Virus record (IMG/VR): IMGVR_UViG_3300033142_000236
Location: 1-30,273 of that record
Source: a virus
Length of the DNA: 30,273 bases
Reading direction: 5' to 3' (one strand)
The first letter of the stretch is position 1; each line of letters starts with the position of its first letter. Shown piece by piece: positions 11,335 to 30,273 of the stretch. The notes beneath the pieces were generated by a model. It was given only the letters and a program-made list of their open reading frames with translations, was not told where the DNA came from and searched no databases. The translations under genes and the position numbers were made by a program.

Positions 11335-11910
11335 ATGGCCAATAAACATATTTTAAGTTTAGAGATACCAACAGTTTCTAACTGTAATCTACTGTGTATC
11401 AAGGATACAAGTCAGTACTCTAAAGATTTAGCAGTAGATTGTGAAGAATTACAAATAACATTACCTGGTTTTTCAGTTCCCGTACTAGTAAAAGTAGATA
11501 AAGATTTTGACATGTGTTTAACAGCATGTGCACTTAATTTACAAAAAGAAAAGTGTGGTGATACTCAACAAAACATTCCAGATGGTATTTATATTGTAAG
11601 ATATAGTGTATCTCCAAATAGCAAAGTATATGTTGAATATAATCATTTAAGAGTTACTGCATTATTAACATCATACTATGAAGTATTATGTGATCTTGAT
11701 GTGCATGCTTGTCAACCTAATTCAACTAAAGAATCATTACTAGCTGAATTAAGTTATATAAGAACTATGATTGATGCAGCAGTTTCTAATGTAGAATATT
11801 GTTCATCAGCAGCACAAGGAATGCAATTATATAACTATGCAAAAATTAGATTAAATAAGATCATCTGTCCTACAGGAGACTGTAAGGGTGGCAGTAAAGC
11901 TTATTATTAA
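11335..11910 (+). CDS. Conserved small virion-module protein of Bacteroidota phages
   Basis: A 191-residue protein with a beta-rich N-terminal half (residues 1 to about 110: HILSLEIP, LQITLPGFSVPVLV, DGIYIVRYSVSPNSKVYVEY) and a helical C-terminal half with Cys at several places and the end CPTGDCKGGSKAYY. The pattern of a short Ig-like beta domain followed by a helix containing YYEVLCDL is one I recognise from fibre-adjacent genes of Bacteroidota phages; I have no name or proven role for it. It is followed at 12 bases by a zinc-ribbon protein and then by a fibre-end-domain protein, and the three probably act together at the tail or fibre attachment point. Confidence 0.65.
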   Translation: MANKHILSLEIPTVSNCNLLCIKDTSQYSKDLAVDCEELQITLPGFSVPVLVKVDKDFDMCLTACALNLQKEKCGDTQQNIPDGIYIVRYSVSPNSKVYVEYNHLRVTALLTSYYEVLCDLDVHACQPNSTKESLLAELSYIRTMIDAAVSNVEYCSSAAQGMQLYNYAKIRLNKIICPTGDCKGGSKAYY

Positions 11911-12687: not shown

Positions 12688-15063
12688 ATGGCAAGTATTA
12701 AATATTTACAAAATATAGACCTCAATGGTAGTGAATTGCAAAATGCAGTTGTACAGAATTTAGGGTCTAGTCCAACCGTATATGGTGATGGGCAAATTTA
12801 CTATGACACTGGTGTAGATAAACTATTTTTACGTGCCAACGGTGCATGGGTAGCTGTACAAACAGGGTCAGAAGGAGATACAAAGTATGACCTTACAGGT
12901 GTTGGATCCACAAATGGTACAGCAGGTGTAAGACTTACAGAACAAGGAACATCTAATCATGATGATGTATTAATTGTTGGTGCTGGTACAGTAGGAGTAA
13001 CAAGAAGTGGTAATACACTGACAGTTACAGGAACTGACTCAGCAGCTGGTACAGTAACTTCCGTGTCAGGTGGTACTGGTATTACAATTAGTGGATCAGC
13101 AACAGTTACTCCAACAGTTAACATTGACTATTCAGGAACTGACAATGCAATTTTAGCTGCTTCAGCTGCAACACCTGTTGGTGCTGATACATTATGGTTC
13201 TCTGATGCAAGTGATAATACAATTAAAAAATCATTGTTATCTAACTTCCCAGGATTTGGGGCAGATGGTACAGTACTTTCAGTAGGTTCAGGTGCAGGTT
13301 TAACGGGTGGTACAATAACTACTACTGGTTCATTAGCAGTAGACTATGCAGGAACTGATAACGTTATACTAGCTGCAGGAGATGGAACATCTGTAACATT
13401 AGCAGATGCAGATGATTTCTTATTTTCTGATGCAACTGATAATGCTGCTAAATATGCAAACTTATCTCAATTAAAAACATATATTAATGCATCTGCTGGT
13501 TCTGTAACTTCAGTAGGTGTAAGCGGTGGTTCAACAGGAATGTCTTTTAGTAACTCTCCAATTACTTCTACTGGTACAATGACAATGTCAGGTACATTAG
13601 ATGTAGATAATGGTGGTACAGGACTTTCAAGTTATACAACGGGAGATATACTATATGCTTCTGGTGCATCAACATTAGCTAAATTAGCTATAGGTTCAGC
13701 AGGACAAGTATTAAAAGTATCTTCAGGTGGAATTGTAGAATGGGCTGCAGATACAAATACAGGACTTACAAGTGTTGGTATTACAGAAACAGGTAGTGCA
13801 CTTACAATTTCTAATACTCCTCTTACAGCAAATGGTAACATAAACATTGCTGGTGCAGGTACTTCTTCACAAGTAATTTTAGGTAACTTAACACTTGCTA
13901 CTTTACCAGTAGATGGTGTAACAAGTATAGGTATAACTCCAGGTACAGGATTAGATGTAAGTAATTCACCTATTACAAGTAGTGGTAATATTGGTATTAC
14001 ACTTGACTTAAGTGAATTAACTACAGTTACAGCTATTGATCCTGCTAATGATTTCTTAGTAGGTGTAGATGGAACGGCTAATGAAAAAATATTATACCAA
14101 AATGTACATCTTAACCAATGGGGTGCTGCTGAAGCTGATGTAAACATTGGATCAAATAAATTATTGAATGTAGCAAATGGTACAGCATCTTCTGATGGTG
14201 TTAACTTAGGGCAAGTACAATCTCTTGTAGCTGGAGTTGGTGTATTCCAAGGTGGATATAACGCAAATACAAACACTCCTAAAATAGCAGGTACAAGTAA
14301 CATTGCACTTACTACAGGTGACTTCTTTGTTGTTACTACAGATGGTACTATATCTTTCAATGGTAGTACTGTAGCTGTAGAGGTTGGTGATATGATTTAT
14401 GCTAATTCAGATATTAGTGCAAGTTCCAATCCAGCAGAAACAGCTTATAGTATTGTTATTCAAGATCAAAACATTGCAGGTACAGGTTCAACAGATGGAG
14501 CAACAGAAAAAGGTGTTGCTGGATTTAGTAGTGCTTCTTTCTCAGCAACAGCAAATGGATTTATCACAATCAAAACAGGTGGTATATCAAATGCTATGTT
14601 AGCAAATACTCCTAATTACATTATTGGTATTGACACAGATATTAATACTTCAGGTGTTGAAGTAGTTGATCAAATTAGTTTAACTGATGGTGTTGTACAA
14701 ACATTAACTAAAAGAACATTACCTGATGCAACTACAAGTGCACGTGGTGTAGCTGAAACAGCAACTCAAACAGAAGTTAATGATGGTACTTCAGGAGATC
14801 ACTTAATGGTAACTCCTGCTACATTAAAAGCTCATTTAGATGCTCAAAGTTATGCAGTAGATTGGCCATCAAGTAATGCATCATCTCAGGCTATATCACA
14901 TGGTTTAGATACTTTAGATGTTATTGTTCAAGTATTTGAGAAGAGTTCTGGTAATACTGTATTCTGTGGAATTGAAAGAAACTCTACAAGTCAAGTAACA
15001 ATTACTACTTCAGGTACTACTACAGCTAATACTTTAAGAGTTCTTGTTACAAAAGTAAGATAA
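12688..15063 (+). CDS. Modular tail fibre protein
   Basis: A 791-residue, Gly/Thr/Ser-rich beta protein. Residues 1 to about 60 look like an attachment region (NIDLNGSELQNA, GDGQIYYDTG). Then follow many units of the type GTVTSVSGGTGI and a roughly 45-residue module with DYxGTDNxILAA and FSDASDNTIKKS, present twice here and once in the next fibre. NGGTGLSSYTTGDILYASG near residue 310 and ETATQTEVNDGTSGDH near residue 690 are classic phage fibre repeats. Residues about 735-791 form a beta end domain like that of the preceding gene. It is the last gene of its unit and is followed by a strong terminator. Role: receptor contact or stalk of a trimeric fibre. The target is not readable from sequence. 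Confidence 0.8.
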   Translation: MASIKYLQNIDLNGSELQNAVVQNLGSSPTVYGDGQIYYDTGVDKLFLRANGAWVAVQTGSEGDTKYDLTGVGSTNGTAGVRLTEQGTSNHDDVLIVGAGTVGVTRSGNTLTVTGTDSAAGTVTSVSGGTGITISGSATVTPTVNIDYSGTDNAILAASAATPVGADTLWFSDASDNTIKKSLLSNFPGFGADGTVLSVGSGAGLTGGTITTTGSLAVDYAGTDNVILAAGDGTSVTLADADDFLFSDATDNAAKYANLSQLKTYINASAGSVTSVGVSGGSTGMSFSNSPITSTGTMTMSGTLDVDNGGTGLSSYTTGDILYASGASTLAKLAIGSAGQVLKVSSGGIVEWAADTNTGLTSVGITETGSALTISNTPLTANGNINIAGAGTSSQVILGNLTLATLPVDGVTSIGITPGTGLDVSNSPITSSGNIGITLDLSELTTVTAIDPANDFLVGVDGTANEKILYQNVHLNQWGAAEADVNIGSNKLLNVANGTASSDGVNLGQVQSLVAGVGVFQGGYNANTNTPKIAGTSNIALTTGDFFVVTTDGTISFNGSTVAVEVGDMIYANSDISASSNPAETAYSIVIQDQNIAGTGSTDGATEKGVAGFSSASFSATANGFITIKTGGISNAMLANTPNYIIGIDTDINTSGVEVVDQISLTDGVVQTLTKRTLPDATTSARGVAETATQTEVNDGTSGDHLMVTPATLKAHLDAQSYAVDWPSSNASSQAISHGLDTLDVIVQVFEKSSGNTVFCGIERNSTSQVTITTSGTTTANTLRVLVTKVR

Positions 15064-15147: not shown

Positions 15148-18100
15148 ATGGCAATAAACTTCTTAAATAATCAGTCAGTAACAGGTACTTTAAGTGTGTC
15201 TTCTATATCTAATGATAATTCTTCCTATACTGGTATATTAGTTTGGGATGGTGGTGTTCTTAAATATAGAACTAAATCACAAGTTAGATCAGATATAGGT
15301 GCAGGCACAGGAAGTGGAACTGTTACCAGCGTTGCTATTTCTAATGGTGGTGGTATAGGTGTTAGTGGATCTCCTATAACTGGCAGTGGTACAATTACTT
15401 TAACTAATTCAGATAAAGGATCAAGTCAAAATATATTTAAAAATATTGCAGTTAGTGGTCAAAGTACTGTAGTAGCTGACTCTAACAATGATACTCTAAC
15501 ATTAGTTGCAGCTGGTGGTATGACTATTACTACAAGTGGTGATACTATAACTTTAAACTCAGCTAATGATAATGATAATAACTATTTAACTAGTTTAAGT
15601 TTTAATACAGGAAATGGTGTTCTTACTGCAGCAAGAAATGGTCTATCTTCTGTTACAGTAGATCTAGATGGTAGATATGTAGAAGTAGCAGGTGATACAA
15701 TGACTGGTGATCTAGTGATGGATGATAATAGTGGTGCCTCACCTAGTATATATTTTTATAATGCATCAAATAACTATGCTAGATTGATGATGGATACTAG
15801 TGATCAATTTCTAATAAAAATAGGTACTACAAATGAGATGACTATGTCATCAACAGCAACTACTTTTGATTCATCTGTAACAGCTCAATCATTGGTATTA
15901 AGTAGTGCATCTGATGCTATGATTACTCTTAATCAAACAGGTACTGATACAGGATGGAGCTATATAAACTTTCAAACAAACAATGTAAGAAATTATTATG
16001 TTGGACAAGATTCAGATAAAAACTTTGAAATATATAATGATAATTTAGATGTTATAGCAATATCTGTAAAATATGCTACAAATTTTGTAAACATAGGAGG
16101 AGACTTAACAGTTGAAGGTGGTGATATTATTTTATCAGGTACCGGTAGAATACAAGGTATTGATACTGTATCCCTAGGTACAGATGCAGCAAATAAAACT
16201 TATGTAGATAATGCTGTATCAGGTGTACCTCAAGGTACAGTAACTGGTACAGGAGTTGATAATAGGTTAGCTATTTGGAATGGTACAACTGCTATTGATT
16301 CTGATGCTGACTTTTATGTAGATGGTGATACAATATATTCATCAAATTTTGAAGCAAGTGGTAAAGTAGTAACTCCTGAAGTAGTAACTCCTAAAGTAGT
16401 AGGTAGTACTATAACTTTAGATTCAGCTGGAGATATTGTTTTTGATGCTGATGGTGCAGATATTGCACTTAAAGATGGGGGTACTGAATTTGGTAGATTT
16501 ACAAGAGCTAGTTCTGATTTTATAATTAAATCAATGTCAAATAATAATGATATTCTTTTAAAAGGAATTGATAATAGTTCTACAATCACAGCTCTTAAAT
16601 TAGATATGTCTGATCAAGGTTGGGCATATTTTAATACAGGTATAGCAGTTGCAAACTCAGGAGCAGAAAGTACATTTGCAGGGAAGGTAACTGTTTCAGG
16701 TTTTGTTGCAGCTGCAAGTTTAAGACCTACAAATATAGCTACAAATAAAATAGTAAAGTTTGATGGTACAGACTTAGATGATTCTATAATGACTGATGAC
16801 GGTAGTACTGTAACTGTTGCAGGTGATTTACAAATACAAAAATCTACACCAAAAATAACTTTTAACAATACAGCTGGTGGAGGTTTAGACCCAATATTAA
16901 CGGCATCAGGTAGTAATTTTACTATTTCAACAACTAGTATTACTCCACTTTCAATAGCTTTAGATACTGGTAACACAACTATTCTTGGAAGTTTAACAGC
17001 TGCAATTGCTGCTGATACTAATAGTACATATGCAGGTATTGTTGTTTCAGAAAATGGATTACTAAAATATAGAACTAAAACACAAATTAGAAGTGACATT
17101 GGTGCAGGTACTGGTGATGGTACTGTTACATCTGTATCCTCTGGTAATACAAATACAATTACTGTAGGAGGGTCTGCAACAGCACCAACTATATCAGCTA
17201 ATACAGGTGCTGTAAGTAGTAGTTCATCAAACTTAGCAACAGGAGCACAAATTCAAACAGCTATTAATACAGCTGTAACAGGAGTTTTAGCATTTCAAGG
17301 AACCTGGAATGCATCTTCAAATTCACCAACATTAACAAGTGGATCAGGTACACCCGGGCATTATTATATTGTGGGAACTGCAGGATCTACTAACCTAGAT
17401 GGCATAACAGATTGGGCCGTAGGAGATTGGGCAGTATTTTCTGATTTAGCAACAGATGCTTGGCAGAAGATAGATAATACCCAAGTTGGTAATGTAACAG
17501 GTTCAGGAGCTAATACCAGAATACCAATATGGAATAGTTCTTCAAACATAACTTCAGATAGTGGTTTAACATTTAATACATCAACAAATCTTTTAACAGT
17601 AGGTGGTCAAGTAAATTGGTCAGGTGGTCATTCTGGAGAATCTAATGCTGCTTATGATAACATGATTACTGCATTCAGTGATTCAGGTTCTTCTACAATA
17701 ACATTAACGCTTACACAACAAGATGGTGGTACTTTAACTACATCATTTAGTAATCCACAAGGAACAACTACACCAAGTAATACACAAACATTTACAAATA
17801 AATCTGGTAATATATCACAGTGGACTAATGACTCAGGTTATACAACTTTTGCAGAGCCAGGAATATTTTCTGGGGGTGGTACACCCACTTTAGCAAGTGG
17901 TGTAACAGCAGCTGAGATAAGATCTTTAATAGGAGCAGGTACTGGAAGTGGTACAATGACAGGTTTTGGAGTAGCATCTGCTGTTGGTGGTTCTTCATTT
18001 ACTATTACTAATGGAGAAACAGTAAGTATAGTAGGAGGTACAAATATTCAATCAGTAATAGATACAGGTGATGAAAGTATTACATTAAATTATAATGGTC

Positions 18101-19716
18101 CTTTACCAGCTATAACAACAGATGGATCTACGCCTTCTTTAGCTAGTGGTATATCAGCTGCTGAAGTAAGAAGTTTGATAGGTGCTGGGACCGGAGCAGG
18201 TACAATGACAGGCGTTGCATCAGGAGCTGGTTTACAGGGAGGAGCAACATCAGGTATAGCTACTCTTGCTGTAGATTATCAAGGAACAGATAATTATATA
18301 TTAGCAACACCCTATGGTGCTGAAACCCCTGTTGCAGCAGATACTATTGCATTTGTAGATTCTGATAATAATGTTCATAAAACTACTATTAGTAATTTAC
18401 CATTTAGTAATAATTCTGGTACTGTAACAGAAGTATCTGGTGAAGGAACAGTAAATGGAGTAACATTAACTGGAACTGGAACAGGTGCTGTTACTTTAAC
18501 TCTTGGTGGATCTCTATCAATAAGTAACTCAGATTGGGATGGGACTGATTTATCTGTGGCTAATGGTGGTACTGGAGCTTCAACCGCAGCTGGTGCAAGA
18601 ACAAACTTAGGTGTTGTAAACGACACTGGTACTCCAGCTATTTTATCAGATGGTTCAAGTCCAAGTTTAAATACTGGAATAAGTGCTGCTGAGATCAGGA
18701 GTTTAATTGGTGCTGGTACAAGCTCAACAAATAACTATGTTAGTTCTGTATCATTTGCTACCGGAACAGGTGTTCTTACATTAAATAGAAGTGGTCTAAG
18801 TGCATTAACTGTAGATTTAGACGGTAGATATTTACAGCTTTCTGGTGGTACAATGACCGGTGATGTTACATTTAATGATAATATAAAAGCACTATATGGT
18901 ACCGGTAATGATTTACAAATGTATTATGATGGTAGTAAAGGTATTATAGATAATAGAGCTGGATCAATGCAAATACGTTCTGCTGATGAGCTTTCTATAA
19001 TGAAAGGTTCTTCAGAAACTATGGCAACATTTACACCTGATGGTGGAGTAACTTTAAATTATGATAATTCTCTTAAGTTTGAAACAAAATCAACTGGTGC
19101 AAAAGTAACAGGAAGTTTAACTGTAACATCAGCTCTACAAGCTAGTGGTAACTTACAAATTCAAGGTACTGAGATAGACTTTGAACAAACTACTAATTTA
19201 TTATTAGGAAATGGTACGCAAATAGAGATAGATGGAGATGCTGGTACAACTGGACAATATTTAAAATCATTTGGAAATGGTAATGGTGTACAATGGGCTG
19301 ATATACCAAGTCCTACTACTACTCAAACTATAATAAACAGTAATTTTATAGACACAGGAAGTAATACAAATGCATTAAGAATACCTTTTAATAGTTTAAA
19401 TGAAACAACTTCAAATCAGTATTATAACTGTATGGATATGCCGGCTAATGGTACTGTTAAAAGATTTAGAATGCATAATGTTAGTGGAAGTATGAGTACT
19501 GGCTTTACTACAACAATGTTGATATTTAAAAATGGTAGTACAACACCTACATCTTCTGGTACATTAACTGCTTCTAGTGGTCAAATTGAATGGGAACCTA
19601 GCAATTACACATTTAGCAAGGGTGATCATTTACAGTTTGCATATGCTAAAAGTGCTTTAAGCAAGTATTGGCAAGGTGTTGCTGCTTCAATAATAATTGA
19701 ATTTACACAAGTATAA
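15148..19716 (+). CDS. Giant modular tail fibre / receptor-binding protein
   Basis: At 1522 residues this is the largest gene of the window. It is built from repeated Gly/Thr/Ser-rich beta modules. LKYRTKSQVRSDIGAGTGSG near residue 35 returns near residue 645. DLDGRYVEVAGDTMTGDL near 172 returns as DLDGRYLQLSGGTMTGDV near 1226, a well-known phage fibre repeat. AAEIRSLIGAGT-type units occur three times between residues 915 and 1190. A module near 710-775 with LDGITDWAVGDWAVFSD resembles carbohydrate-contact repeats of other fibres. The last ~130 residues (from about 1390) change character, contain no such repeats and have aromatic residues and a KGDHLQFAYAKS strand, as expected for a receptor-binding head. 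Its stop overlaps the next ATG (TAATG). Confidence 0.8.
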   Translation: MAINFLNNQSVTGTLSVSSISNDNSSYTGILVWDGGVLKYRTKSQVRSDIGAGTGSGTVTSVAISNGGGIGVSGSPITGSGTITLTNSDKGSSQNIFKNIAVSGQSTVVADSNNDTLTLVAAGGMTITTSGDTITLNSANDNDNNYLTSLSFNTGNGVLTAARNGLSSVTVDLDGRYVEVAGDTMTGDLVMDDNSGASPSIYFYNASNNYARLMMDTSDQFLIKIGTTNEMTMSSTATTFDSSVTAQSLVLSSASDAMITLNQTGTDTGWSYINFQTNNVRNYYVGQDSDKNFEIYNDNLDVIAISVKYATNFVNIGGDLTVEGGDIILSGTGRIQGIDTVSLGTDAANKTYVDNAVSGVPQGTVTGTGVDNRLAIWNGTTAIDSDADFYVDGDTIYSSNFEASGKVVTPEVVTPKVVGSTITLDSAGDIVFDADGADIALKDGGTEFGRFTRASSDFIIKSMSNNNDILLKGIDNSSTITALKLDMSDQGWAYFNTGIAVANSGAESTFAGKVTVSGFVAAASLRPTNIATNKIVKFDGTDLDDSIMTDDGSTVTVAGDLQIQKSTPKITFNNTAGGGLDPILTASGSNFTISTTSITPLSIALDTGNTTILGSLTAAIAADTNSTYAGIVVSENGLLKYRTKTQIRSDIGAGTGDGTVTSVSSGNTNTITVGGSATAPTISANTGAVSSSSSNLATGAQIQTAINTAVTGVLAFQGTWNASSNSPTLTSGSGTPGHYYIVGTAGSTNLDGITDWAVGDWAVFSDLATDAWQKIDNTQVGNVTGSGANTRIPIWNSSSNITSDSGLTFNTSTNLLTVGGQVNWSGGHSGESNAAYDNMITAFSDSGSSTITLTLTQQDGGTLTTSFSNPQGTTTPSNTQTFTNKSGNISQWTNDSGYTTFAEPGIFSGGGTPTLASGVTAAEIRSLIGAGTGSGTMTGFGVASAVGGSSFTITNGETVSIVGGTNIQSVIDTGDESITLNYNGPLPAITTDGSTPSLASGISAAEVRSLIGAGTGAGTMTGVASGAGLQGGATSGIATLAVDYQGTDNYILATPYGAETPVAADTIAFVDSDNNVHKTTISNLPFSNNSGTVTEVSGEGTVNGVTLTGTGTGAVTLTLGGSLSISNSDWDGTDLSVANGGTGASTAAGARTNLGVVNDTGTPAILSDGSSPSLNTGISAAEIRSLIGAGTSSTNNYVSSVSFATGTGVLTLNRSGLSALTVDLDGRYLQLSGGTMTGDVTFNDNIKALYGTGNDLQMYYDGSKGIIDNRAGSMQIRSADELSIMKGSSETMATFTPDGGVTLNYDNSLKFETKSTGAKVTGSLTVTSALQASGNLQIQGTEIDFEQTTNLLLGNGTQIEIDGDAGTTGQYLKSFGNGNGVQWADIPSPTTTQTIINSNFIDTGSNTNALRIPFNSLNETTSNQYYNCMDMPANGTVKRFRMHNVSGSMSTGFTTTMLIFKNGSTTPTSSGTLTASSGQIEWEPSNYTFSKGDHLQFAYAKSALSKYWQGVAASIIIEFTQV
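15241..15330 (+). repeat. Internal duplication in the giant fibre, copy A (copy B at 17041-17130)
   Basis: The two stretches encode matching modules, ILVWDGGVLKYRTKSQVRSD and IVVSENGLLKYRTKTQIRSD, followed in both by IGAGTG. DNA identity is visible over AAATATAGAACTAAA and again over GGTGCAGG. This points to duplication of a fibre module inside one gene. Confidence 0.65.
17881..18720 (+). repeat. Three related fibre modules (SLIGAGT repeat)
   Basis: Units at 17881-17961, 18130-18210 and 18658-18720 encode TPTLASGVTAAEIRSLIGAG, TPSLASGISAAEVRSLIGAG and SPSLNTGISAAEIRSLIGAG. Codon choice differs between copies, so they are not recent duplications. Confidence 0.7.
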
Positions 19717-20222
19717 TGGCAAATATAAATGATAACATAAGAGGTAAAAAACTATTTAAACAAGGAAGCTCAGGACAAAAAGCTGTCAAAGGTAGTGATG
19801 GAGAAATAACAGTTTCTAAAGAAATATCTGATGATTTAGCAAGTCTAACAGACATTAGTGAGATATTTAATGATGATGGTCTATATCAAGTAAATAGATT
19901 TTTATTGAAACAAATAGAAGATCTAAGAGAAGATGTAGAGGAATTACATGCATTTATAAAAGCTGCTTTTGGTAAAGACTCTTCAGCTGCTAGTTCACAA
20001 GGACCTAAAGGTAATACTGGTGCACAAGGACCTAAAGGTGACACAGGAGCAACAGGAGCTCAAGGTCCAAAGGGTGACACTGGTGCTAAAGGAGATAAAG
20101 GTGATAAAGGAGACAAGGGTGCTACAGGTGAGAATGCTTCACTAAGTGGATTTGAAGGAAAGAAAACAGTTGGTAAAGAAACCTGGACTTTTGAAGATGG
20201 TTTATTAAAAACAGTAAAATAA
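19716..20222 (+). CDS. Collagen-like virion protein
   Basis: A 168-residue protein in three parts. Residues 1 to about 90 contain a helical segment (NRFLLKQIEDLREDVEELHA) likely to form a trimeric coiled coil. Residues 96-140 are 15 unbroken Gly-X-Y triplets (GPK, GDT, GAT, GDK and others), a collagen-like triple helix with many charged Lys/Asp positions. Residues 141-168 are a short beta end (KTVGKETWTFEDGLLKTV) that reads like a fragment of a fibre capping motif. Its ATG overlaps the fibre stop by one base, so it is translationally coupled to the giant fibre and probably part of the same adhesive structure, as a stalk or whisker. No proline hydroxylation is expected in bacteria; charge pairs would stabilise the helix. 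Confidence 0.8.
   Translation: MANINDNIRGKKLFKQGSSGQKAVKGSDGEITVSKEISDDLASLTDISEIFNDDGLYQVNRFLLKQIEDLREDVEELHAFIKAAFGKDSSAASSQGPKGNTGAQGPKGDTGATGAQGPKGDTGAKGDKGDKGDKGATGENASLSGFEGKKTVGKETWTFEDGLLKTVK
20001..20135 (+). repeat. Gly-X-Y triplet repeat (15 triplets)
   Basis: Nine-base periodicity encodes fifteen Gly-X-Y triplets in a row, with GGTGACAC and GGAGATAAAGG type units recurring. Such tracts slip and recombine easily, so the copy number may vary between relatives. Confidence 0.85.
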
Positions 20223-21614: not shown

Positions 21615-23864
21615 ATGATCCCAACAATATCAAGCGGTAGCACAAACGGATGTGATAACATTTCTTCTAATTGTGTAGTATGGCAAGGACCAGACATTTC
21701 TTGTATAAATTTATGTACAGGAGATACAATAAGTGATGTTACATATAAATTAGCTACAAAGGTATGTGATCTTATTACCAATGGTGTAAGTGCAAATCCA
21801 AGTCTAGCAGGTTTAGATTTAACATGTTTAAATATTCCTGGAATTACACCAACTGAATTAGTTCCTGTTTTACAAGCAATGGTAAAACAAATATGTGCTA
21901 ATACAGGATCTAATCAAGTACCAAACTCTAACAGTAGCCTTTCTTCACAGTCACAAGTACAAGCTGACTTACCAATGATGACATTACCTGCATGTATGCA
22001 GTATAATGATGCAAGTGGCAATCCTGTTACAAGCTTACGTCTAGATGAATTTGCAACATTGATAGCAAATCAAGTATGTACAAATTTAGCTAGCATACAA
22101 GTAATTAATACTACTCTAACAAGTTATAGTTCAAGGTTAGATGTATTAGAAGCATGTGTATTACCATGCTCATCTACAGTTGTAGAAAAACAGGTTGTTC
22201 CAACATGTATTATAAATGTAGGGCAACTAACTGATGTATCAGTTTTATTATTAGCATTAGAAGTACGTTACTGTGCATTAGAGACAGCAGTAGGGTTACC
22301 AGCAGCTATTAACTTAGCTATGAATCAAAGTACTATACAATCTTCTACTTCATCTTTATATGGCGTAGCAGGTAACAATGCTTCTTACGGATCATTATCA
22401 GGATGGAATGGTACTGTATCTAATTTAGCACAGAGTGTACAAAATGCATGGGTTGTTATTGATGACTTATATAATGCATTATCACAAGTACAAACAAACT
22501 GTTGTCCAAGTGGATGTGATGGAATTACTTTTGGATATACTACAAGTAATCTTTTTGCAACAAGTGGATTAATTAATGCAGTAAACTTTAATTTCCAAAG
22601 TAGTGTAGTACCAAATTCTTTTAGTGATGCATCAGGATTTAGCAAACTTATTGTAACAGATGTTAATGGCGTAAAAGCAGAGACTACTGCTAGTGTTGCT
22701 TTATTACAAAATAGTGCAACAGGTATTACTTTACCTTTACCATCTGGATTTAATTCTTCTCAAAATATGACATCACAAGTACAATTTTCATTTACAAATG
22801 GAACAAATGTTTGTGATGATAATATATCAAAAACTATAACAGGTGTAGTACCATGTCCTGCTTCTATTACCACAACAAGTATTACTAGTACAAATGTAAC
22901 AGTAGGCTTTACTCAATTGTTAGGTACAACTGCTGTATATAAAATAGATATTTTAAATACTTCAGGTGTGGTTGTTAAGACTTATACTCAAAATAGTCCT
23001 GCTGGTGCAGTGAGTCATACGTTTACTGGTTTAACACCAGGTAGTCAATATAATGTAAGAGTAACAACTACATTTAATGGAGCAAGCAAAGTATGTGACT
23101 TAGTTCCATTTGCAACAACTTCTGCTGCTGCATCATGTAGTGCAGGAATGGATGTTGCCTTTGTTGTAGATTATAGTAATAGTATGGGTACTTCAATTGA
23201 TGCAATCAAAGCTGGTATAACTACAGTTGTAAACTCAGTTACTTCACAAGTAGGATCTAACGTATATAGATTAGGTTTAGTTACTGCTGATGAACGTTCA
23301 AGTAGTACTCCTACATATAATACATCATCTGCTTATCAAGCATTACCAGCAGCACAAAGAGTTATAAATACTGGTACAAGTACTTACCAATTTATAACTG
23401 CATGGGAGATGTTCCAAAATAATAATCAATCATCATTTACTACTCAGTTAAATAAACTTAATTCAGGAGCACCTACATCAGGTGTACCATTAGGATCTGG
23501 TAATGGAATAGCTGAACCAACAGATATGGCAATAGGTTTAATAATAGAATCTAATGCCTTCTTAGGAGCATTTACTGGTTCATCTGCTAAATATGTTATA
23601 GTTATAACTGATCAATTACCAAGTGGTGATGATGATCAATTTAACCAAATAGATGCTGCAAGACTGAATAGCTTACAAGCAACAGCATTAACAGCAGGAA
23701 TTAAAATATTTGTTTGTGGTCCTGGTACAAGTAGAACATATACTCCACTTGGAGGAGATGCATACTACCCATGGAGAGAGCTTGCTACAAACACAGGAGG
23801 AAACTGGAATGTATCTGAGAGTCCAGCAACAATAGCATCATTAATAACTAATGGTTGCTCATAA
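21615..23864 (+). CDS. Virion adhesin with fibronectin III and von Willebrand A domains
   Basis: A 749-residue protein. Residues 1 to about 90 are Cys-rich (VWQGPDISCINLCTGD) and resemble base regions of tail proteins in Bacteroidota phages. The middle is a repetitive beta/helical stalk with further Cys (NCCPSGCDG). Residues about 412-505 look like a fibronectin III domain (SITSTNVTVGF, TFTGLTPGSQYNVRVTT). Residues about 510-749 are a von Willebrand A domain with a complete metal-ion site: Asp519-x-Ser521-x-Ser523 (VDYSNSM), Thr636 (EPTD) and Asp666 (VITDQ). Such domains bind proteins through a divalent metal. There is no signal peptide, so it acts as a virion part. It probably sits at the tail tip or on side fibres and contacts the host surface; the partner is unknown. 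Confidence 0.78.
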   Translation: MIPTISSGSTNGCDNISSNCVVWQGPDISCINLCTGDTISDVTYKLATKVCDLITNGVSANPSLAGLDLTCLNIPGITPTELVPVLQAMVKQICANTGSNQVPNSNSSLSSQSQVQADLPMMTLPACMQYNDASGNPVTSLRLDEFATLIANQVCTNLASIQVINTTLTSYSSRLDVLEACVLPCSSTVVEKQVVPTCIINVGQLTDVSVLLLALEVRYCALETAVGLPAAINLAMNQSTIQSSTSSLYGVAGNNASYGSLSGWNGTVSNLAQSVQNAWVVIDDLYNALSQVQTNCCPSGCDGITFGYTTSNLFATSGLINAVNFNFQSSVVPNSFSDASGFSKLIVTDVNGVKAETTASVALLQNSATGITLPLPSGFNSSQNMTSQVQFSFTNGTNVCDDNISKTITGVVPCPASITTTSITSTNVTVGFTQLLGTTAVYKIDILNTSGVVVKTYTQNSPAGAVSHTFTGLTPGSQYNVRVTTTFNGASKVCDLVPFATTSAAASCSAGMDVAFVVDYSNSMGTSIDAIKAGITTVVNSVTSQVGSNVYRLGLVTADERSSSTPTYNTSSAYQALPAAQRVINTGTSTYQFITAWEMFQNNNQSSFTTQLNKLNSGAPTSGVPLGSGNGIAEPTDMAIGLIIESNAFLGAFTGSSAKYVIVITDQLPSGDDDQFNQIDAARLNSLQATALTAGIKIFVCGPGTSRTYTPLGGDAYYPWRELATNTGGNWNVSESPATIASLITNGCS

Positions 23865-23880: not shown

Positions 23881-24447
23881 ATGGCATGTAATTGTACAAA
23901 ATGTAGTCAAAAATGTAGCTGTGCTGACACAGCCATTACTAACGCATGTACATACACAGATTGTAGTGTAGGTAGTGAAAGATGTGATGATATTCAATGT
24001 GCAGCATGTGTAAGCTATTGTGGTACATCTTTTCAAATAGGTACTACAGGGCAAATGATTCAAATAACTTCTGGTGAAAGACTTGATTCTATTATACAGA
24101 AGTTTGCCTCAATTTTATCACAAGGACTAGGTGCATGTACATCTAATGATGTAGTACACAATCCTTATAATGTTTATGCAACGGCAGTAACAAGTTCAAG
24201 TATTACAGTTGTATGGGATGGTGTTTGGAGTTCTACCTCTGGATTTAATGTGTATAGAGATACACAGATAAATCCTAGTGGATGGACACTCTGTAACGGA
24301 TCAGGTGTAATAGCAACAACTATTAGAAGTTACACTATTACAAACTTAACTGCTAGCACTGCATATAAAATCAAAGTTCAAGATGCAGGTATAGGTAGTG
24401 GATGTGAGCCAATAGAATTATTGGTTTCAACTCTTGCTGCTTCATAG
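23881..24447 (+). CDS. Cys-rich protein with a fibronectin III-like domain
   Basis: A 188-residue protein. The first 47 residues hold 11 Cys, with motifs CNCTKC, CSC and CAAC, enough to bind two or more metal ions or to form disulfides. A short helix follows (ERLDSIIQKFASILSQG), of the same style as the base region of the preceding adhesin. Residues about 97-188 form a fibronectin III-like domain (NVYATAVTSSSITVVWDG, FNVYRD, YTITNLTASTAYKIKVQ). It lies 16 bases after the adhesin, with which it shares both domain types, and before a strong terminator; the two probably form one complex. A secreted role is unlikely since there is no signal peptide. Confidence 0.68.
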   Translation: MACNCTKCSQKCSCADTAITNACTYTDCSVGSERCDDIQCAACVSYCGTSFQIGTTGQMIQITSGERLDSIIQKFASILSQGLGACTSNDVVHNPYNVYATAVTSSSITVVWDGVWSSTSGFNVYRDTQINPSGWTLCNGSGVIATTIRSYTITNLTASTAYKIKVQDAGIGSGCEPIELLVSTLAAS

Positions 24448-24554: not shown

Positions 24555-25778
24555 ATGAATTACAAAAAACAAAAAGTAATTGATTCCTTAAAATGGAAGA
24601 AACATCCTAAAATTAGTGCTCAAAGACTTGGAATGTCAGAAGATGAGTACATAAAGATTAAACAAGAAGTTCTTCAAGAAAGAAAGAATGCAAGAAAAAA
24701 AGCTAATTTTTTTAGCAAAGCAGCTGATAATTCTCAGCTGGTAGAGTCAATAGACTTAGATAAAGGACAGGGTAAAATATCTGGTACATTTGATTATGAA
24801 CCTAAGACAGCAGAAGAAATAATATCCTTACTAAAGATAGATACAAAAAAATGGAAACTATCCCAGTATTGGAATAAACAAATGGGAGATCACTGGAGAG
24901 TATCTGCTTTAGTAACTAAGTTAAAAGATCCAGAAGAAAATCTATTTAAAAATTTACTAGAGACCTGGCAACCTAAAAAAAATAAAATACCTAAGATAGA
25001 TACTAAAAAATTAAAATCTTTAAATCCTGTTTGTGGTGTTATGTCTTTACAAGATATACATTTTGGTAAAGAAGGTAATGAAACTATAGATAAAGATTTT
25101 GAGGATACAGTTAAAAATCTTATGAGTAGAGCTGTTCCTGTTAATTATATTGAAAAGCTTTATTTTGTAGTAGGAGGTGATCTAATTAATATGGATACAT
25201 TTTCTGGTACTACCACCAGCGGTACACCTTTAGATAATTGTATGAATGCTACAGAGGCTTATGTACAAGCATTTGATGCTATGCACTGGGCTATAAATTA
25301 TTTAAAAGCATTTTGTAAAGAACTTGTGGTAGTCTATGTTCCAGGTAATCATGATAGATTATCTTCATACCATTTAGTTCATGCTTTATCCAAGTCAATA
25401 GATTGTGATGAGATTGTTTGGGATATATCTTATGAAGAAAGAAAGGTACATGTATGGCATAATAATTTTAATGCATTTGAGCATGGTGATAAACCTACTA
25501 AGAATACCCCTCTTGTTTATGCAACAGAGTATCCAAAAGAGTGGGGTAACACAACAAACAGAACATTATTTACAGGACATTTTCACACTGAAAGAAAAGT
25601 AGAATATATGACAACCGCTGAGACAACAGGGTTTATACATAAGACTTTACCAAGTTTAGGTAAAACTGATTATTATCATTATAGTAATAAATATGTAGGT
25701 AACAGAAGATCTGGTAAATTAGAAATACAACATCCTACAATGGGCAACATCTGTGAATTAACTTATCAAGCATTATAA
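24555..25778 (+). CDS. Calcineurin-like metallophosphoesterase
   Basis: A 407-residue protein with a complete two-metal phosphoesterase site: Asp167-x-His169 (LQDIHFG), Gly-Asp209 and Asp214 (GGDLINMD), Gly-Asn265-His266-Asp267 (VPGNHD), His310 (FEHGD) and Gly-His342-x-His344 (TGHFHTE). These residues bind two divalent metals and cut phosphoester bonds, in nucleic acids, nucleotides or proteins. Residues 1 to about 55 are basic and helix-turn-helix-like (KISAQRLGMSEDEYIKIKQEV), as in some phage DNA-binding proteins. The gene has its own terminator and a terminator before it, so it is a separate unit within the structural module. A DNA-processing nuclease similar to the Mre11/SbcD group in fold only, or a signal-nucleotide phosphodiesterase, are both possible. 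Confidence 0.85.
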   Translation: MNYKKQKVIDSLKWKKHPKISAQRLGMSEDEYIKIKQEVLQERKNARKKANFFSKAADNSQLVESIDLDKGQGKISGTFDYEPKTAEEIISLLKIDTKKWKLSQYWNKQMGDHWRVSALVTKLKDPEENLFKNLLETWQPKKNKIPKIDTKKLKSLNPVCGVMSLQDIHFGKEGNETIDKDFEDTVKNLMSRAVPVNYIEKLYFVVGGDLINMDTFSGTTTSGTPLDNCMNATEAYVQAFDAMHWAINYLKAFCKELVVVYVPGNHDRLSSYHLVHALSKSIDCDEIVWDISYEERKVHVWHNNFNAFEHGDKPTKNTPLVYATEYPKEWGNTTNRTLFTGHFHTERKVEYMTTAETTGFIHKTLPSLGKTDYYHYSNKYVGNRRSGKLEIQHPTMGNICELTYQAL

Positions 25779-26408: not shown

Positions 26409-27083
26409 ATGTCAACAATAGCTGAGGTAGTATCAAGAATTAGAGGTCAAGCAAAAGCAGAAGTTCAAGATGCTTTTATAACTGACAGATATATATTTAG
26501 TCTTATAGAAAAGTTTGCTCAGATATTAATGAGAAGGCAAGACTTTGCAAATAAGCTAATGAAGTTTAATTCTGTATGGAAAAATTTACCATACGTTGAA
26601 CTAATAGATGTAGATAAAGTAGAAGCAGGGTGTTCAGGCATTACAAGTGGATGTACTATAAAACGTTCTAAACATAGACTTCCTTCAATGTATGAAGGAT
26701 ACTGGGGACCTCTTATCCGTACAGTAAGTTCTATAGATGGATCTCAAGAATTACAAGCAACACAGCCTGGTACATATACATCAATGACAAAAACAACATC
26801 TTTTAAATATAACAAGACATTATATTTTTGGTGGTTAGATGGTTATATATATTCTCCAAACATAGAGTGGGATGCATTACAAGTTGAAGGGGTGTTTAAT
26901 TCTGATATAACTAAATGGAATTGTGATACAGAAGATGACTGTACACCAAGATATCAACAACCAATATACATTCCTGAAGCTTTATTTGCAGAAATAGAAG
27001 CACAAGTCTTACAAGTTATGTTAGGGACTATGCAAATACCTTCTGAGGATTCTGACAATAAACGTAATATAAATAGACAATAA
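26409..27083 (+). CDS. Putative tail ring / tubular protein A
   Basis: A 224-residue protein. The N-terminal 60 residues (IAEVVSRIRGQAKAEVQDAF, TDRYIFSLIEKFAQILMRR) form helices typical of the ring or tail tubular proteins of crAss-like phages, which stack below the portal. The middle is beta-rich with paired acidic/Cys loops (CSGITSGC, CDTEDDC). The C-terminus is helical (EALFAEIEAQVLQVMLG). Its stop overlaps the ATG of the next gene (TAATG), which encodes a second protein of the same kind, so the two are made in a fixed ratio. The call is from resemblance and gene order. Confidence 0.65.
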   Translation: MSTIAEVVSRIRGQAKAEVQDAFITDRYIFSLIEKFAQILMRRQDFANKLMKFNSVWKNLPYVELIDVDKVEAGCSGITSGCTIKRSKHRLPSMYEGYWGPLIRTVSSIDGSQELQATQPGTYTSMTKTTSFKYNKTLYFWWLDGYIYSPNIEWDALQVEGVFNSDITKWNCDTEDDCTPRYQQPIYIPEALFAEIEAQVLQVMLGTMQIPSEDSDNKRNINRQ

Positions 27084-28066
27084 TGGGAGTATCACAAAAA
27101 TATAGAACATTCAGTCAATTGATGGAAGATGTATCCATAGACTTTTCTACATATGCGTTAGAGGGGATGATTGAACCACAACAACTAATTAAGGTTGCAC
27201 AAAGAGTCAACTATGATTTAGGATTAAGAATACACAGAACAAAAGAAGCTGTATTAGATATAGAACATGGTAAAGCACAATTACCTATGGATTTTAAATA
27301 TCTTAATTATGCTTTTAGATGTGGGTCTTATACAGTAAATAATACAATGCCTTCAGGAACACATGTAGAAACATTTAATGATGTTCCTTATGTACCAGCT
27401 CCTGGTGAGTCTGGACCTTGTGAGGATCCTGAATGTAGAGATGTGTGTGTTATAAAAACATGTGATGATAAAAAAGAGTATCAATTAATACAAAGAGTGG
27501 GTCCAAATCAGTATAGACAATTTTCTAGTTGGTCACAATTAAGAATACAAAATGTAAATGATCCTGTTTGTTTTTGTCCTGCATTAGGTGCACAATCTTT
27601 AGATATAGCAGAAATTAAAGATGGTTTTATGTGTACTACTTTTAAGACAGGTAAAGTATATATAAGCTATCAAGGTGAAATGGAAAGTGCTGAAGGAGAC
27701 TTGTTAGTGCTAGATCAACCATATTGTAATGAGTATTATGAATATGCTATAAAGCAAAGAATATTAGAAAATATGGTATGGCAAGGAGAAAATGTATCTC
27801 AACAATTACAATTAGTAGAGGTTAGACTTAGAGCTGCTAGAAATAATGCATTAGGTTTTGTAAATACACCAAACTTCCAAGAAATGAGAAAAGTTTGGAC
27901 TATGAATAGAAGAGCTCAATATCATAACTATTACAATATGTTCTTAAGTTATGCTCCATTGCAACCAACAATACAAGGACCTGGTGTAGTAACTAGTGGA
28001 CCAAATTCTGTTGTACAAGAAGCAGCCGCACCATCAAGTGGATGTGATACTACAACAGCAACATAA
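27083..28066 (+). CDS. Putative tail ring / tubular protein B
   Basis: A 327-residue protein. Its first 90 residues are highly characteristic: YRTFSQLMEDVSIDFSTY, EGMIEPQQLIKVAQRVNYDL and LDIEHGKAQLPMDFKYLNYA. I recognise this pattern from ring proteins of crAss-like phages. A Cys-rich loop follows (CEDPECRDVCVIKTC, residues about 113-128), then a beta region (FKTGKVYISYQGEM) and a C-terminal helical part (ILENMVWQGENVSQQLQLVE) ending in a Pro/Gly/Ser tail. Translation starts by overlap with the previous stop. It would form the next ring of the short tail, below protein A and next to the stabilization protein encoded downstream. Confidence 0.7.
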   Translation: MGVSQKYRTFSQLMEDVSIDFSTYALEGMIEPQQLIKVAQRVNYDLGLRIHRTKEAVLDIEHGKAQLPMDFKYLNYAFRCGSYTVNNTMPSGTHVETFNDVPYVPAPGESGPCEDPECRDVCVIKTCDDKKEYQLIQRVGPNQYRQFSSWSQLRIQNVNDPVCFCPALGAQSLDIAEIKDGFMCTTFKTGKVYISYQGEMESAEGDLLVLDQPYCNEYYEYAIKQRILENMVWQGENVSQQLQLVEVRLRAARNNALGFVNTPNFQEMRKVWTMNRRAQYHNYYNMFLSYAPLQPTIQGPGVVTSGPNSVVQEAAAPSSGCDTTTAT

Positions 28067-28082
28067 ATAATTATTCAGAGTT

Positions 28083-30273
28083 ATGGCAAAAAAAAAGTCT
28101 AAATCTACACCGCAGCAAGGTCAAAGAAAGGCTGGGAGACCAGCTTTTAGTTCTTCTTCAGTAAGAATTAATACATTCAACAAAGGGATGAACAAAGACA
28201 TTGCTCAATCCCTTGAGTTAAATACTCAGTGGTGGCATGCAAGAAATGCAGCTAATTATGATGCTGATGGTGATGTAGGTCTAATAGGTAATGAGCCAGC
28301 CAATCTACAATGTGGTGTAATACCTTACACTGTTATAGGAGCTATACATAGATATGGAGATGAGTGGATAATATATTCTACTGATGACATTAGCTCTGAG
28401 ATAGGACGTTTTGATGATAGTGAATGTAAATATGAAACTATTGTAAATGCTCCTTGTTTAAATTTCAAAAAGAAACATTTGATTACAGGTGCAGCAAAAG
28501 AAAATTTTGATTGTACATGGCAGGTATATTGGGATGATGGACTAAATCCTTCACGTACTTTAAATATAGATGATGTACCATATATTCAAGAAATAGTTTC
28601 AGCTCCAGGAGATCCATGTATAGTATATGAAGATAAAGAACCAAAGGTATTAGACTGTGAAAAGATTAGACTTGCACCTTTAGTATCTACACCTTGCCTA
28701 AAACTTACTAAAGCAAGAGATGGAGGTTTATTATCAGATGGATGTTATCAGGCATTTATAGCTTATGTAGAGAATGAACAAAGAGTTACAGACTACATAG
28801 GTATATCTAACCTACAAACTTTATGGAATCATAATGATGATGCATGTGGTTTAAACTTAGATATATCTGAGTTAGATAAAGATTATGAATTTTTTCAACT
28901 AACATTATTAATAAGAAATCAAGGACAGTTATTTAGAAAGATTATAGGACTGTATAGTACAGAAGTAACATCAATAGATATAGATTTTATAGATCCTACT
29001 TTACCATCTGAGACAGCTGTAGATTTATTTTTTATATCTCCTTCCTATGAAAAATCAGATTCTATGTTTGTTGTTAATGATTATTTAATTAGACAAGGAC
29101 CAACTGAACAATTTGATTTTAATTATCAACCAATAGCAAATAATATTGTAACTAGTTTTGTTGTCAATCAAGTACCTATTGATTATTACTATAAAGCAGG
29201 TAATAAGTTAGGATTTATGCGTGATGAACAATATGCATTTTTTATAAGATGGATATATAATACAGGAGAAAGATCTGCATCATATCATATACCTGGTAGA
29301 GCTCCTAAACCATATACACTACCAAATGGCACAACATTTAATGAAGATGAAAAAATTGTTAGTTCTAACTCTGTAAATGTATTAGGTGATGAAGAATATG
29401 TATTTCAAGTATATAATACAGGTCAAGTAACTCAAGCAGTAAGTGAACAACAAGAAGATGGTAGTTTTATAGTTGCACGTGGTGAAATGGGATACTGGCA
29501 ATCAACAGAAAGATATCCTAGTAATAGACCAGATATATGGGGAGATTTATGTGGTGAGTTTATAAGACATCACAAAATACCTAGTGAGCAACAAGGTGGT
29601 AGTGATTTAGCTTTAACAAGTATAAACGAAGACTTTATAAATATTGTTGGTGTTGAATTCTCAAACATTGCTAGACCAATAGATAATGACGGTAATGTTA
29701 TTGAAAACATAGTAGGTTATGAAATACTAAAAGGATCTAGAATGGCTGCTAAAAGTATTCTAGCAAAAGGTATGTTTAAGAACATGCGTGAGTATACTGT
29801 TCCTGCTGCTGATAATTTATTAGGTAATGATATACAAGGTTTATATGTTAATTATCCATACAATGATTTAAGACCTGATCCATACTTTACAACAAGTAGA
29901 GATACAGAAGGCTGTGATGATTATGCTGATTCTATTAGTAACTTCCCTCCTTTAACTGGTTATAGAACAGATGTATTTAGTTTTCATTCTCCTGATCTTA
30001 TGTTTACTAAACCTTTCTTAAATACAAGTGAGGCAAAAATTTATGGAGAAATACATGGTAGTTCATCTGGTAAATTTATACCATCAGAAAATCATCCTGG
30101 ACAAAAGCTATTAAGAAACATATCTGCTTTGATTTCTGCATTTATTGGTTTAGGTTATGCTGTAAGACAAATACAAGGTACACCTAATGTTACTGCACTT
30201 CCTGTACAGGCTATGAATAATGCATATCCTGAATGGCATCTAAAATTTAAAGATATAGGTGGTGGAGGAGGAA
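28083..30273 (+). CDS. Tail stabilization protein, 3'-truncated by window end
   Basis: An ORF of 730 codons that stays open to the last base. The start is basic (MAKKKSKSTPQQGQRKAGRP), then INTFNKGMNKDIAQSLELN, the N-terminal signature I associate with the stabilization protein of crAss-like phages. Later segments agree: RWIYNTGERSASYHIPGRAP, GEMGYWQSTERYP, and FHSPDLMFTKPFLNTSEAKI followed by YGEIHG. The body is a beta-rich repeat fold, and Cys residues are frequent. A hydrophobic stretch near residues 680-700 (ISALISAFIGLGYAVRQIQG) and a Gly run close the visible part. Full-length members of this family are well over 1000 residues, so several hundred codons are probably missing. It anchors the tail below the ring proteins encoded just before it. 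Confidence 0.8.
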   Translation, partial: MAKKKSKSTPQQGQRKAGRPAFSSSSVRINTFNKGMNKDIAQSLELNTQWWHARNAANYDADGDVGLIGNEPANLQCGVIPYTVIGAIHRYGDEWIIYSTDDISSEIGRFDDSECKYETIVNAPCLNFKKKHLITGAAKENFDCTWQVYWDDGLNPSRTLNIDDVPYIQEIVSAPGDPCIVYEDKEPKVLDCEKIRLAPLVSTPCLKLTKARDGGLLSDGCYQAFIAYVENEQRVTDYIGISNLQTLWNHNDDACGLNLDISELDKDYEFFQLTLLIRNQGQLFRKIIGLYSTEVTSIDIDFIDPTLPSETAVDLFFISPSYEKSDSMFVVNDYLIRQGPTEQFDFNYQPIANNIVTSFVVNQVPIDYYYKAGNKLGFMRDEQYAFFIRWIYNTGERSASYHIPGRAPKPYTLPNGTTFNEDEKIVSSNSVNVLGDEEYVFQVYNTGQVTQAVSEQQEDGSFIVARGEMGYWQSTERYPSNRPDIWGDLCGEFIRHHKIPSEQQGGSDLALTSINEDFINIVGVEFSNIARPIDNDGNVIENIVGYEILKGSRMAAKSILAKGMFKNMREYTVPAADNLLGNDIQGLYVNYPYNDLRPDPYFTTSRDTEGCDDYADSISNFPPLTGYRTDVFSFHSPDLMFTKPFLNTSEAKIYGEIHGSSSGKFIPSENHPGQKLLRNISALISAFIGLGYAVRQIQGTPNVTALPVQAMNNAYPEWHLKFKDIGGGGG

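Follow-up and report, generated by a model that had tools for sequence, protein, structure and literature searches.

The 749-aa protein and its gene neighbourhood

The window analysed here is the whole of virus record IMGVR_UViG_3300033142_000236 (30,273 bases), and the gene of interest encodes a 749-aa protein that combines, from its N-terminus, a presumed anchor, a beta-sandwich, a fibronectin type III (fn3) domain and a von Willebrand A (VWA) domain. The features of this protein, and of the genes that bear on its interpretation, are the following:

1266-4016: portal gene, matching phrog_6547 (E 2.2e-91)
11335-11910: 191-aa Cys-rich protein, occupying the position of the THA tail hub gene
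21615..23864, + strand: 749-aa protein (N-terminal anchor, beta-sandwich, fn3, VWA)
21615..22514, + strand: N-terminal region, residues 1-300, presumed virion anchor (low-confidence model)
22539..22838, + strand: beta-strand-rich domain, residues 309-408, Ig-like by look (predicted strands)
22857..23084, + strand: fn3 domain, residues 415-490 (PF00041, E 3.2e-7, above cut-off)
23136..23861, + strand: VWA domain, residues 508-749, with Cys508 and Cys748 at its ends (Pfam, conservation, fold)
23169..23183, + strand: metal-site motif DYSNS, residues 519-523
23514..23516, + strand: Glu634, which probably serves as the fourth metal ligand and aligns with Glu220 of integrin beta3
23520..23522, + strand: Thr636, variable and probably not a ligand
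23610..23612, + strand: Asp666 of the metal site, which aligns with Asp251 of integrin beta3
23881..24447, + strand: 188-aa Cys-rich protein with fn3, possible partner (directly downstream in every relative whose sequence extends far enough)
24555-25778: 407-aa protein inside the tail block, metallophosphoesterase-like by eye, without a Pfam match
26409..27083, + strand: tail ring protein 2 (CrAss_Ring_2), which puts the VWA gene in the tail block
27083..28066, + strand: tail ring protein 1 (CrAss_Ring_1)
28083..30272, + strand: muzzle protein (crAss_MUZ), cut by the record end

The portal match, the ring 2, ring 1 and muzzle genes (the CrAss_Ring_1, CrAss_Ring_2 and crAss_MUZ profiles all scored above cut-off in the window, at 26409-30272) and the distance of its portal relatives indicate that, on sequence grounds, the window is a distant crAss-like phage. 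Those portal relatives, found in 131 phage records, are all <60% identical and belong mostly to crAss-like phages of Bacteroides, Flavobacterium and Cellulophaga. The one ranked first comes from a phage of the cyanobacterium Leptolyngbya (33% identity), an oddity in view of the Bacteroidota that the crAss-like group is thought to infect. A copy of the window, with 99.9% identity over 17,165 bases, is also present in a 110,543-base contig (L002).

Gene order was compared across 73 anchor proteins, taken from the best 80 of 502 relatives and including the window twice (as itself and as L001, a shortened copy). Wherever a locus held enough DNA, the anchor gene was followed by the 188-aa gene (70/70, one of these being the window copy) and the phosphoesterase gene (68/68), and further downstream by ring 2 (64/64), ring 1 (60/60) and the muzzle gene (6/6). 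The original prediction had spoken of a phage tail protein, a label that has contextual support from this gene order and from the occurrence of the same module in muzzle proteins of other crAss-like contigs (see below); presence of the protein in the virion itself is what we infer. On its other side, the VWA gene lies near two fibre-like genes (12688-15063 and 15148-19716), and the fibre block also holds a collagen-like triple-helix repeat protein (19716-20222; Pfam Collagen, E 8.5e-10).

The tail of phiCrAss001 shares with the window the order ring 2, ring 1, muzzle and the possession of Cys-rich tail proteins, but it has no VWA. The place of the VWA gene before ring 2 had suggested that the 749-aa protein might be the tail hub THA; this identification was rejected, as the N-terminal region has no match to gp38 (THA) of phiCrAss001 and the 188-aa protein none to its gp39 (THB). 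A profile search found the crAss_THA family in 0/12 related records. The 191-aa protein at 11335-11910 has relatives in other crAss-like contigs; compared with THA, it gave no BLAST match, a probability of 1.2% in profile comparison and no match to crAss_THA, nor did it match the PDB.

Within the 749-aa protein, the N-terminal region is the more conserved part, with a mean column identity of 79% versus 68% for the VWA domain (six sequences). Residues 1-301 contain 16 Cys, 11 of which are present in 46/46 aligned homologues. The full-length AlphaFold2 model (46 aligned relatives) is confident from about residue 301, most of residues 1-300 being of low confidence, and the profile search of solved structures returned only fn3 and weak VWA matches for the N-terminal region. 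By tblastn against 50,697 phage records, nothing known matched this region, and the whole 749-aa protein, the N-terminal part of a relative and three other VWA domains likewise gave no match; against PHROGs the best E was 0.018, and NCBIfam gave no match for the window protein. A passage of PMC10172136 describes the tail barrel and hubs of crAss001 as held by disulfides, so a Cys-rich anchor would fit a place in the tail. Docking on the tail rather than on the head is presumed, the N-terminal region being poorly modelled and without known matches.

Fold and putative metal site of the C-terminal domain

Against Pfam, residues 513-588 match VWA (PF00092) with E 2.8e-4 and 21.6 bits, just below the 23.8-bit cut-off; the identity of the domain is settled by its fold. 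When the VWA region was modelled alone with AlphaFold2 (24 relatives), the mean pLDDT was 93.9 and the pTM 0.92. VIA-align ranked an integrin beta I-like domain first for this model (6v4p_B, Z 18.4, 187 residues at 2.7 A, 13% identity); most of the chains tied with it to within one Z unit were also integrin beta chains. Foldseek placed integrin beta chains and the A domain of CMG2/ANTXR2 at the top. The full-length model matched 3ze2_D (Z 18.2, 2.9 A, 189 residues) and, by Foldseek, tandem fn3 chains over ~200 aligned columns; in these full-model searches the VIA list was filled by the VWA part only, and the top Foldseek list by fn3-type chains only, so families missing from these lists may still have matches in the protein. 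As modelled, the C-terminal domain has the Rossmann-like fold of VWA and integrin A domains.

These results bear out the architecture proposed in the original prediction, in which an fn3 domain precedes a VWA domain that has a metal site: the fn3 match is above cut-off, and structure prediction followed by comparison with integrin domains yields a Rossmann-like A domain. The span had been put at 23140-23864, close to that found here (~23136, at Cys508, to 23861). The five residues assigned to the metal site, Asp519, Ser521, Ser523, Thr636 and Asp666, all occur at these positions in the translation.

Conservation of the site was computed over 68 distinct phage VWA sequences, after removal of a partial VWA (L133), identical copies and the window copy L001. 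Asp519 was present in 68/68, Ser or Thr at 521 in 66/68, Ser or Thr at 523 in 65/68 and Asp666 in 66/68, which argues that the site is more than chance. Position 636 behaved otherwise: Thr or Ser occurred in 46/68 phage sequences only, 14 others had Met, and the remaining ones Val, Cys or Gly, and the bacterial relatives described below had Thr in 9/9 injection-system proteins and Gly in 17/17 lipoprotein-type proteins. Glu634, by comparison, was found in 62/68 phage sequences (anchor proteins 52/58, muzzle proteins 3/3, others 7/7) and in 26/26 bacterial relatives. Thr636 had been proposed as the fourth metal ligand, a role that we reject as improbable in view of this variability; the conserved Glu634 is probably the fourth ligand instead.

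In a HMMER alignment to integrin beta3, a weak one with a whole-chain E of 0.72, Glu634 falls on 220 and Asp666 on 251. We take the metal-site positions of integrin beta3 to be Asp119, Ser121, Ser123, Glu220 and Asp251, with Glu220 and Asp251 as ligands. Since Glu634 is conserved and aligned with beta3 Glu220, and 636 is variable, the putative metal site would be of the integrin beta type, D-S/T-S/T-E-D. This set is complete in 62/68 phage sequences, 9/9 injection-system proteins and 16/17 lipoprotein-type proteins. The six phage copies with an incomplete set (L063, L098, L099, L106, L112 and L117) suggest that metal binding is not essential everywhere, or does not take place in those copies.

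The likeness to the integrin beta I-like domains 6v4p_B and 3ze2_D thus extends over the fold of the whole domain and includes D, S/T, S/T, E and D at matching positions. It has limits beyond the low sequence identity, in that the phage protein has no alpha subunit and residues 526-527 are Thr-Ser, where integrin beta3 has an acidic pair (presumably 126-127) belonging to a neighbouring, regulatory metal site. We do not class the protein as an integrin.

Relatives in phages and in Bacteroidota

Relatives were collected as the best 80 of 502, 52 of 52 and the best 80 of 119, so that the share carrying a VWA is biased to close kin. Among the 73 anchor proteins (from the best 80 of 502), 63 carried a VWA, one was cut and nine had other ends, in which no VWA was found by profile. 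The domain also lies within, or ends, muzzle proteins in four contigs, as detected by Pfam (L043:169-6744, L048:151-6741 and L059:994-7404) or BLAST (L231:3420-8717); directly after this muzzle VWA follows the muzzle C-terminal domain, either in the same protein or as a separate next gene. The muzzle of crAss001 is a tail-tip protein according to a section of PMC10172136.

Further contexts were encountered among the phage contigs. A VWA protein directly follows the gene in the tail-hub position, a candidate hub, in nine of them (L056, L218, L226, L243, L244, L250, L251, L253 and L255), the domain occurs in ~500-aa proteins (L039, L044, L047 and L053), and it is combined with a laminin-G/ConA-like lectin domain in L060 and L061. 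It also ends a 1998-aa protein (L249:2709-8705) in a 198.8-kb viral contig for which BLAST found no crAss-like neighbours. In a quick tree with SH-aLRT support only, the muzzle VWAs of L043 and L048 grouped with anchor-protein VWAs (99*), and, going by the starred branches, the state 'muzzle' must have changed at least twice and 'anchor' at least four times. The VWA domain is a mobile module exchanged between proteins, and this exchange is the pattern expected of an exchangeable recognition head.

The nearest viral model is the VWFA protein A0A7S9SU38 of Virus NIOZ-UU157 (E 7.5e-30, 42% identity, TM 0.95), which differs in its length of 986 aa and is already labelled VWFA. The same structure search of viral models returned a VWA model of the crAss phage cr106_1 at 15% identity.

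A pattern-based scan of 84,980 species genomes gave 26 loci, all in Bacteroidota. Nine of these (L143-L151, one Dokdonia MAG and eight Chryseobacterium) encode a 1045-1088-aa protein that ends in the VWA. Baseplate_J and 929-952-aa genes lie upstream in 8/9, the ninth contig beginning inside the gene, and a sheath match (PF04984, E <0.001, over cut-off in 2/8) precedes the gene by ~11 kb, in the same orientation, in 6/8 and is on another contig in 2/8 (Chryseobacterium). On account of the Baseplate_J neighbours and sheath matches, we take these nine loci as putative contractile injection systems. Their best VWAs are 45-47% identical to that of the window, and like it they carry a C-terminal VWA with the metal site (9/9), here beside baseplate genes; they differ in having another N-terminal part (1080 aa, with cadherin/Big-type repeats) and in belonging to a contractile particle rather than a short-tailed phage. 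They can be likened, by VWA and gene context, to the VWA-bearing fibre proteins of the eBAP4 group that appear in part of PMC12923769.

The other 17 loci (L152-L168) encode short proteins (269-344 aa) whose N-terminus is a hydrophobic stretch that ends in Cys. A strict lipobox pattern is present in 7/17, and all 17 are probably secreted lipoproteins. Over the VWA they are 35-42% identical to the window, with which they share the terminal Cys508, Asp519, Glu634 and Asp666, but they are cell-secreted, measure ~290 aa and have Gly at 636. An OmpA-family gene lies directly upstream in 17/17 (15 intact, that of L153 in three pieces and that of L168 partial), an assignment checked with Pfam OmpA in two of the 17. 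Among 196 genomes from the order of one carrier, a match of lipoprotein length occurred in the carrier only, and the 1080-aa injection type in three others.

Proposed role of the VWA domain

Our preferred reading, to which we give a probability of roughly 0.62, is that the VWA domain is the candidate cation-dependent, target-binding head of a tail appendage. The Cys-rich N-terminal 300 residues would dock the 749-aa protein on the virion, and the two beta-sandwich domains would form a stalk. The C-terminal VWA would be an exchangeable head that grips a cell-surface target through a divalent cation. Asp519, Ser521, Ser523, Glu634 and Asp666 would hold this cation, and the target would contribute an acidic group to complete the metal shell, as in integrins. 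As relatives of the domain are found on bacterial lipoproteins and injection machines as well as in further tail proteins, it is probably how these particles hold the target cell. What the computation shows is the fold, the conserved site residues, the gene surroundings and the movement of the module between proteins; a place in the virion, a bound metal and a host surface molecule as ligand are inferred. The metal-gated binding of a host surface protein envisaged in the original prediction is plausible and agrees with this reading.

The VWA could instead serve as a joint inside the virion: during assembly its metal site would grip another phage protein, for example the 188-aa partner or a fibre, and the cell would be recognised by the fibres at 12688-15063 and 15148-19716. 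Many VWA domains work in protein complexes, the 188-aa gene is always found next door (70/70), and the long fibre-like and collagen-like genes are close by, all of which would suit such a joint. Nine anchor proteins, however, have unrelated ends in its stead, and the module has also moved into proteins of the muzzle, lectin-like and injection-system kinds. Such swapping is more easily reconciled with a head that faces outward than with an obligate joint, and we regard an internal joint as unlikely, though the likeliest of the rival readings.

Less probable still is mimicry, in which the phage head would copy the VWA lipoprotein of the Bacteroidota outer membrane and bind that lipoprotein's OmpA-family partner. 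Such copying would be in keeping with the OmpA-family gene directly upstream at all 17 lipoprotein-type loci and with the at least 44 positions conserved (at least 80% per group) when 58 VWAs of anchor proteins are compared with 17 of the lipoprotein type; Asp519, Ser523, Glu634, Asp666 and their neighbours belong to these positions. Against it, position 636 and the loop 702-720 differ between phage and lipoprotein-type domains, the latter form one clade of the tree, separate from the phage domains, the lipoprotein is rare (the carrier only, among 196 genomes of its order), and the strict lipobox is limited to 7/17; we consider this reading improbable.

That the protein acts outside the virion, like the CobT or MoxR-linked AAA+ adaptors of other tailed viruses, is highly improbable: descriptions of VWA proteins in phages usually concern such adaptors, at least in the portions of PMC8651126 and PMC7911831 that concern them, and several CobT-type models rank in the structure search of viral models, but those models are only 10-15% identical, AAA_5 is above cut-off in 0/12 related records (four weak matches lie far from the gene), and the gene sits in the tail block with fn3 and a Cys-rich anchor.

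The VWA domain is already on record in particles other than phages. Section 9 of a 2026 catalogue (PMC12923769) lists VWA among the fibre domains of extracellular contractile injection systems. Phage VWA domains are mentioned in excerpts of PMC8651126, PMC8504454, PMC10892097 and PMC7911831, and those in PMC8651126 and PMC7911831 are CobT or AAA+-linked. In the open PMC literature we found no paper that describes an adhesin of phage virions built on a VWA domain, and none on a crAss-like phage with a von Willebrand domain. To call the adsorption mode unusual, as the original prediction did, is fair for phages and less so for injection systems, to judge from the catalogue's section: there the VWA is already known as a fibre domain, and its description as a phage virion adhesin is what we did not find.

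Taken more broadly, and with the odds against it, one metal-dependent adhesion module may circulate in Bacteroidota among short-tailed phages (where it would occupy three or more virion-gene contexts, including the muzzle), contractile injection systems and the pair of OmpA-family protein and VWA lipoprotein. A captured cell-surface domain would then act as an integrin-like, cation-switched hook, possibly on an OmpA-type partner.

To our knowledge, host receptors and the proteins that bind them are unknown for most crAss-like phages. A well-folded, soluble-looking single domain with a defined metal site offers a direct handle on ligand and adsorption, and a module shared by phage tails and injection systems would, if this sharing is true, let the targets of both be compared.
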